A stretch of 37,931 bases of DNA from Pseudomonadota bacterium. GTDB taxonomy: Bacteria > Desulfobacterota > Desulfobacteria > Desulfobacterales > RPRI01. A model generated the notes under the pieces. It made no database searches, had not been told where the DNA came from, and saw only the letters and a program-made list of their open reading frames with translations. The position numbers were made by a program, and so were the translations under genes. The stretch is from assembly GCA_018901125.1 (NCBI GenBank), contig JAHIFE010000094.1, positions 1 to 37,931 of the forward strand. Direction: 5' to 3'. Numbering within the stretch: the first letter of the stretch is position 1; each line of letters opens with the position of its first letter. Positions 19,075 through 21,884 of the stretch are shown one piece after another.

Positions 19075-19147
19075 GGGCCCATAGCTCAGCTGGAAGAGCC
19101 ACCGGCTCATAACCGGTCGGTCCCTGGTTCGAACCCAGGTGGGCCCA
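19075..19147 (+). tRNA. tRNA with CAT anticodon (Met elongator or Ile2)
   Basis: The 73 bases fold as a full cloverleaf. The acceptor stem is GGGCCCA/TGGGCCC with discriminator A, the D stem is GCTC/GAGC with loop AGCTGGAA, and the anticodon stem is ACCGG/CCGGT with loop CTCATAA (anticodon CAT). The variable loop is five bases, and the T arm is CCTGG-TTCGAAC-CCAGG. CCA is not encoded. It is not an initiator tRNA: the first pair is G1-C72 and the anticodon stem lacks three G-C pairs next to the loop. Annotation software would call it tRNA-Met, but C4-G69 and C5-G68 are features reported to favour TilS, and E. coli has ileX near rpoD, so Ile2 (lysidine) is a real alternative. Confidence 0.95.
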
Positions 19148-19260
19148 TATCCGTTAACGGAGAAGAAGATGACTCATAGCAATAGTCATCAAAAACTGGT
19201 TACTGGTTTGGTTATAAACAGCCTGTTGTTTTTATTAATAAGGCGAGATTGTTGTATAAT

Positions 19261-19558
19261 ATCCGATCTAAAGCCATATCGGGGTATGGGGGAGTATGCG
19301 AACCGCAGAAATCTTAACCAACTCTTCGTTTGCGGCAGCAGATATGTTTTAATGAAATCAATGCAGCCCCAAAGATGTATTCCCGCGATGCTACATATTT
19401 TCTTCGCCTTTATGGTATTTGTTATCCACCAGGAGGCTTTTTTGCAGTCTTTTGAGAAATTTCCTGCTGTTTGTCTATGTCGTGCAGTGACCCCGACAAG
19501 ACAAACAAGAGTTATTTAAAACTCTCAAGGCATGGTTACATTGACCATGCCTTTTTTT
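19261..19558 (+). ncRNA. Candidate structured non-coding RNA between the tRNA and nif3-like gene
   Basis: A perfect TATAAT lies at 19255-19260 (no good -35) and a strong intrinsic terminator at 19527-19558. The last 90 bases are packed with stems in series: TGTTTGTCT/AGACAAACA (19468-19476 with 19499-19507, with an inner GTCG/CGAC), then AGAGTT/AACTCT (19508-19525), then the terminator. Upstream, CCGCA/TGCGG (19303-19335) and CAGGA/TCCTG (19430-19466) may also pair. A 126-codon frame crosses the region but starts inside the tRNA and has no protein-like features. It could also be a long tRNA trailer; I do not recognise 6S, SRP or tmRNA motifs. Confidence 0.4.
19527..19558 (+). terminator. Strong intrinsic terminator
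   Basis: AAGGCATGGT (19527-19536) pairs perfectly with ACCATGCCTT (19544-19553) over a 7-base loop and runs into seven T residues. No protein-coding gene ends just upstream, so it ends either the tRNA transcript or a separate RNA. Confidence 0.9.
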
Positions 19559-19620
19559 ATTCGGGCAATTGACCAAGTAGTAAAACAGTATATCATAATT
19601 TATGAGTTGATATTTATCCA

Positions 19621-21505: not shown

Positions 21506-21884
21506 GGCTGGAGCAATCAAAACGATCGCAGGGTCAGTTGAACCTGATCCTGAGGAAAGTCCGAACACCATAGGGCAGGGTGCTCCATAACATGGAGTCG
21601 TGGCAACACGAAGGAAAGTGCAACAGAAAGAATACCGCCCTGCAATTGCAGGGTAAGGGTGAAAAGGTGCGGTAAGAGCGCACCAGATATCCGGGTGACC
21701 GGAGATCTCGGTAAACCCCACCCGGTGCAAGACCAAATAGGGGAGTGTTTGAGGGCTGCCCGCCCAAGCTCCCGGGTAGGTCGCAAGAGGTGTTGGGTAA
21801 CCTGCATCCATAGATGAATGATCGTTATCCTGTTTAGAGTAATCTAAACAGGAGACAGAATTCGGCTTACTGATTGCTCTGGCC
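21506..21884 (+). ncRNA. rnpB: RNase P RNA, bacterial class A
   Basis: This is the catalytic RNA that trims tRNA 5' leaders. The 5' block GAGGAAAGTCCGAACACC lies near 21552. The core GGGTAAGGGTGAAAAGGTGC and AAGACCAAATAGGGG follow, and the 3' block ACAGAATTCGGCTTA ends the core. The ends pair as P1 (GAGCAATC near 21511 with GATTGCTC near 21872), which sets the boundaries. P15/P16-like sequence is present, so it is an A-type molecule of about 379 bases. The L15 region reads GAGGGCTGCCC; I do not see the GGT that usually binds the tRNA CCA end, which fits the absence of encoded CCA in the neighbouring tRNA. Confidence 0.95.

Follow-up and report, generated by a model that had tools for sequence, protein, structure and literature searches.

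The tRNA(CAT) locus

The window analyzed here is the whole 37,931-nucleotide stretch of DNA in which the locus lies. A tRNA gene with anticodon CAT, recognized both by ARAGORN and by Rfam model RF00005, occupies positions 19075–19147. It is followed by a 3′ trailer (19148–19239), a structured segment of 282 bp (19245–19526), and an intrinsic terminator (19527–19558) whose stem of 12 pairs spans 19527–19553 and is followed by T7. All of these features, and all parts of the segment described below, are on the + strand. At gathering score, the models of Rfam 15 match nothing in this stretch except the tRNA; elsewhere in the window they identify an RNase P RNA, a class A gene at 21510–21884 (314 bits) located downstream from a nif3-like gene.

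A sequence-only reading of this DNA had proposed that a TATAAT at 19255–19260 and the terminator may enclose an RNA gene, either a new small RNA or an overlooked family member such as 6S RNA. The features on which that proposal was built are indeed present, including the TATAAT, the 9-base arms TGTTTGTCT/AGACAAACA (19468/19499), and the 6-base arms AGAGTT/AACTCT (19508/19520). Its impression that there is more structure here than a tRNA trailer needs was also borne out, because the 300-nt fold has a predicted energy of −84.9 kcal/mol versus −68.5 kcal/mol for dinucleotide shuffles (z = −3.6), and none of 200 shuffles was as stable.

Alignment of seven genomes indicates that the trailer is ancestral spacer, with 53%–80% identity between the window and six same-genus genomes. 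In the window it contains two hairpins, TCCGttaaCGGA and GATGACT..AGTCATC. The latter hairpin is kept with the trailer across the genus, as seen in the window and at six further loci, and at these same loci the trailer has repeatedly been struck by different inserts. The terminator is present in all seven genomes of the genus that were compared. Its stem reads GCATGG/CCATGC in the window versus GCGTGG/CCACGC in four relatives, which is a compensatory change, and the terminator is therefore part of the tRNA unit. Thus, the terminator named in the sequence-only reading is real, but it does not belong to the segment, as relatives carry it without the insert.

An insertion at the orthologous site

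To locate the orthologous locus, 59 related genomes were searched at the DNA level and the loci found were inspected. In two relatives (G005 and G009), the matches cover the tRNA with its trailer and, farther along, the terminator region, but not the portion between them; this middle portion matches elsewhere as a repeat. The order in G009 and G001 is simply tRNA, a trailer of ∼90–100 nt, and terminator, with no counterpart of 19261–19526, even though conservation of this interval in relatives would be expected of an RNA gene at the locus. The insert has been mostly deleted from G005, which retains ∼24 bp of its right end. Dispersed relatives of the insert are found in eight other genomes of the genus.

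The sequence AAGGC flanks the insert on both sides in the window, at 19240–19244 and again at 19527–19531, where it forms the start of the terminator stem. In G009, where the site is empty, there is a single AAGGC. Two flanking copies opposite a single copy at the empty site mark an insertion that was accompanied by a 5-bp target-site duplication. Because the termini of the window copy carry several substitutions, its boundaries rest on the alignment together with this duplication. Judging from these comparisons, and with a probability of roughly 0.86, we interpret 19245–19526 as one copy of a non-autonomous mobile element, now decayed, that was inserted into the tRNA(CAT) unit downstream from the trailer and ahead of the terminator.

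The same trailer holds other inserts or remnants in four additional genomes (G008, G002, G006, and G004). In two of these, G008 and G002, the trailer is interrupted by a separate repeat (..GGCATAAGGAGCCGTAAC..), beginning at about position 1525 of locus L006 and about position 1575 of locus L005.

A family of elements with shared ends

Copies of the consensus element are present in nine of the 10 genomes of the genus. Its ends are the terminal inverted repeats GAGACCTTTGCATAAC and GTTATTCAAAGCTCTC, which have diverged in the window copy. A search with the terminal 16-mer GAGACCTTTGCATAAC found matches in eight of the 10 genomes, and the reversed control matched none. Exact 5-bp flanking repeats border 24 of 69 non-redundant two-ended elements, with 0.1 expected. 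Repeats of 3, 4, and 6 bp flank only three, two, and one of the same 69 elements, which is no comparable excess.

Many of these two-ended elements are short, about 140–190 bp, and lack the central portion that we call the core. Those that carry the core are about 260–290 bp long and have their ends and duplication length in common with the short elements. When intact, the core-carrying elements are arranged as a terminal repeat, an inner arm, a core of ∼128 nt, a second inner arm, and a second terminal repeat. A search of 1.3 Mb of loci revealed no transposase flanked by such ends and no autonomous transposon with the same ends; draft assemblies break at repeats.

The window copy follows this arrangement throughout. 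Its left terminal repeat, GAGATTGTTGTATAAT at 19245–19260 (family GAGACCTTTGCATAAC), contains the TATAAT, which is a variant of the family repeat (GCATAAC to GTATAAT). Alignment with the arms of a G007 copy, which are 34 bp long and 97% complementary, places the left inner arm, GGGGTATGGGGGAGTATGCGAACCGCAGAAA, at 19282–19312. The conserved core (19326–19452) is matched by two covariance models, termed R1 and R2. It scores 99.2 bits with R1, for which the window copy was one of the 15 building sequences, and 48.5 bits with R2. Alignment with intact copies and the energy of the duplex formed by the copy's own arms identify a decayed right inner arm at 19457–19501. In the 9-bp stem noted above, the 5′ strand and the first part of the 3′ strand come from this arm. 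The right terminal repeat, GTTATTTAAAACTCTC (family GTTATTCAAAGCTCTC), is at 19511–19526 and accounts for most of the 6-bp stem.

Judged from the sequence of this copy, much of the pairing between its arms is gone, as is some of that within its core. The duplex of its own arms has a predicted energy of −33.2 kcal/mol versus a family mean of −69.5 kcal/mol. In the alignment row for the window, all three core helices have broken pairs. Helix 1 (5′ strand GCGGCAG at 19332–19338, partner at 19404–19411) is partly broken, helix 2 (19340–19343, partner at 19428–19431) retains two of its four pairs, and the CCCC strand of helix 3 (19367–19370) is located opposite GGAG at 19432–19435.

Structure of the core and its arms

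Across the dispersed copies, the core has one covarying helix and two further short helices that cross it. In an alignment of 41 sequences that includes more divergent members, helix 1 has seven pairs, is 99% paired, and carries changes on both sides at two pairs. One of these pairs (12/83) is A-U in 30 sequences and G-C in 11. The same pair, numbered 12/85 in an alignment of 60 sequences, has the highest corrected mutual information of any two columns. Helix 2 has four pairs with both-sided changes at every one, and 69.5% of its cells are paired. Helix 3, also of four pairs, is 98% paired and nearly invariant, and so it is supported more by conservation of sequence than by covariation. The covariation score is 0.261 versus 0.122 ± 0.011 for shuffled versions (0 of 500 as high), and slid versions reach at most 0.111. 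The three helices all cross one another, an arrangement that suggests a pseudoknot. Covariation had been named in the sequence-only reading as a test of its small RNA, and it is indeed found; the sequences that covary, however, are scattered copies of a mobile element rather than orthologs.

The inner arms behave differently from the core. Arms pair well within a copy and poorly between copies (mean duplex energies of −69.5 versus −32.9 kcal/mol), and they contain 50 G·U pairs versus 68 A·C mismatches. Since G·U pairs are not in excess of A·C mismatches, selection on the arms at the RNA level is unsupported, and the arms are probably kept as inverted repeats in DNA. The corresponding counts in the core are 12 G·U versus three A·C for helix 1, and nine versus 25 for helix 2. 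RNAalifold returned no useful structure for the whole alignment of full elements because the arms differ between copies and the helices cross.

Outside the genus, the core is located between nearly perfectly self-complementary arms of about 35–55 bp that are entirely different in sequence from one subfamily to the next. The outer ends differ as well, being TTATTACTCCGGCAA in one group and AGGGGTCGGGGAGTTT in another. In both groups, the core and its inner arms can face either way between two outer arms that are unlike each other (10 loci and others like them), which suggests that the core inverts by recombination between the inner arms. An additional hairpin rich in GC (GGCGGTCCGCC..GGCGGACC type) is inserted close to the 5′ part of the core in some copies, such as those at loci L057, L161, and L208.

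Distribution of the core

Model R1 finds four copies of the core in the genome of the window and many more in some of its relatives (25 in G001, 23 in G002, 29 in G003, and 38 in G007), but none in G005 or G009. Across 389 genomes of the order, it matches 19 genomes in eight genera, including members of other families. Model R2 was applied to 395 genomes of the phylum and matched nine, again with other families included. Three of these nine genomes have at least eight copies (all eight candidates scored were positive), and the match in one genome (G635) was weak and proved doubtful on inspection.

A sequence pattern for the core, applied to a named genome collection, yielded more than 120 contig matches, nearly all from Desulfobacterales or Thermodesulfobacteriota MAGs. 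The few outliers from other phyla are unmatched by R1 and resemble coding sequence. No match to the pattern was found in the viral contigs scanned, and none was found in phages or plasmids searched with one element each. The genes around the copies show no orientation bias upstream and a weak one downstream. At permissive E-values, Rfam returned nothing relevant for the window locus or for 25 related loci. The literature searched describes no such element, although it comprised open-licence papers only, so this absence is weak evidence.

Alternative explanations for the locus

The Rfam scan recommended in the sequence-only reading agrees that the segment is not a catalogued RNA, and this leaves room for a new RNA. 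An independent small-RNA gene, driven by a promoter of its own at the TATAAT (19255) and ending at the terminator, would also account for the presence of both signals and for the fold z-score of −3.6. We nevertheless regard such a gene as quite unlikely. No sigma-70-type promoter is matched around the TATAAT, which belongs to a terminal repeat of the family, and the sole + strand site found by the promoter scan is at 19569–19596, past the terminator. Moreover, the orthologous position lacks conservation, and relatives have the terminator but no insert. What was taken for a small RNA is instead best described as an inserted mobile element.

The decayed element might still have been domesticated, and now function within the tRNA transcript in trailer processing or RNA stability, for example. 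Its position between trailer and terminator means that it is probably co-transcribed with the tRNA, and the stability of its fold relative to shuffles could be read in the same way. Domestication is unlikely in our estimation, because same-genus relatives lack the insert or have lost it, the pairing of its arms and core has eroded, and other, unrelated inserts are present in the same trailer of genus members, which indicates that the site tolerates insertions. The window copy is most likely passive sequence that is transcribed only within a tRNA precursor ending at about position 19558.

Two further explanations strike us as very improbable. The proposal of 6S RNA, or of some other known family that was overlooked, would fit the length and structure of the transcript and its proximity to a housekeeping gene, but the 6S RNA of this genome was located on a different contig (C107, 98.7 bits), RF00013 is absent even from the list of matches with E ≤ 10 at this locus, and no Rfam family matches either the window locus or intact copies. 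The core could also be a degenerate protein gene, as single copies do contain open frames. An example in the window is an ORF of 126 amino acids (19139–19519), but this frame spans from the tRNA through the inserted element. Furthermore, at most 29 of 60 aligned copies are open in any one frame, the cores differ in length by amounts other than multiples of three, and the base pairs covary.

A proposed mechanism and its implications

A mobile element entered the DNA between the trailer and the terminator of the tRNA(CAT) unit, duplicating the 5 bp AAGGC. By analogy with MITEs, a transposase acting in trans would recognize the terminal repeats and make 5-bp staggered cuts, and this enzyme would presumably be common to the short coreless and the core-carrying elements. 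Because the core appears to fold via a covarying helix and two crossing helices, it probably acts as a folded single-stranded nucleic acid, either RNA or DNA, in the propagation of the element itself.

A tentative and rather doubtful extension of this proposal is that the core represents a new class of functional structured RNA, or a folded single-stranded DNA signal, that moves from one kind of transposon end to another within Desulfobacterota and helps any element carrying it to become mobile. If it is a structured RNA, it may for example be self-cleaving, guide-like, or transposase-recruiting. Since the same folded core recurs although the arms and termini around it are quite different, selection seems to act on the core itself and not on a single transposon. 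The core is thus a candidate, open to testing, for a nucleic-acid component that aids the spread of mobile DNA. In addition, many genomes of the sulfate-reducer type hold multiple copies of an element that is missing from RNA catalogues, and annotation based on structure alone will therefore keep labeling such copies “small RNAs,” as happened at this locus.

Comparison with known elements

MITEs and other small mobile sequences such as NEMIS/Correia, RUP, ERIC, and CIR are the general kind of element to which the family can be compared (reviewed in PMC2229807). Like the element described here, bacterial MITEs are short, non-coding, multi-copy, mostly intergenic sequences without a transposase of their own, with terminal inverted repeats, a target-site duplication, and predicted long hairpins. 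The family at hand exhibits terminal inverted repeats, a target-site duplication of fixed length, dispersed copies, empty sites, and no coding capacity. It also includes elements with a core of ∼128 nt whose crossing helices are common to differing arms and termini across families, and this pseudoknotted core sets it apart from a plain MITE. We know of no such core common to the listed MITEs, and the element family behind the locus looks new.

The bcr1 repeats of the Bacillus cereus group are also mobile and intergenic, duplicate their target site, and have a fold that is conserved and covaries, and the element resembles them in each of these respects as far as general descriptions go. By the same descriptions, bcr1 is shorter (about 155 bp), is confined to one species group, and is not known to have a pseudoknotted core between arms that differ. 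6S RNA resembles the element in being a structured non-coding RNA of similar length, but the element differs in having no match to the 6S model, in a genome whose true 6S gene is elsewhere.

At positions 1653–1718, the window also contains a mini-element of 66 bp with ends of the same kind (GAAACCTTTGGATAAC..ATTATTCAAAGATCCC) and a 5-bp repeat, ATCAT, on each side; judging from these ends, the terminal-repeat family has inserted here for a second time in the window.
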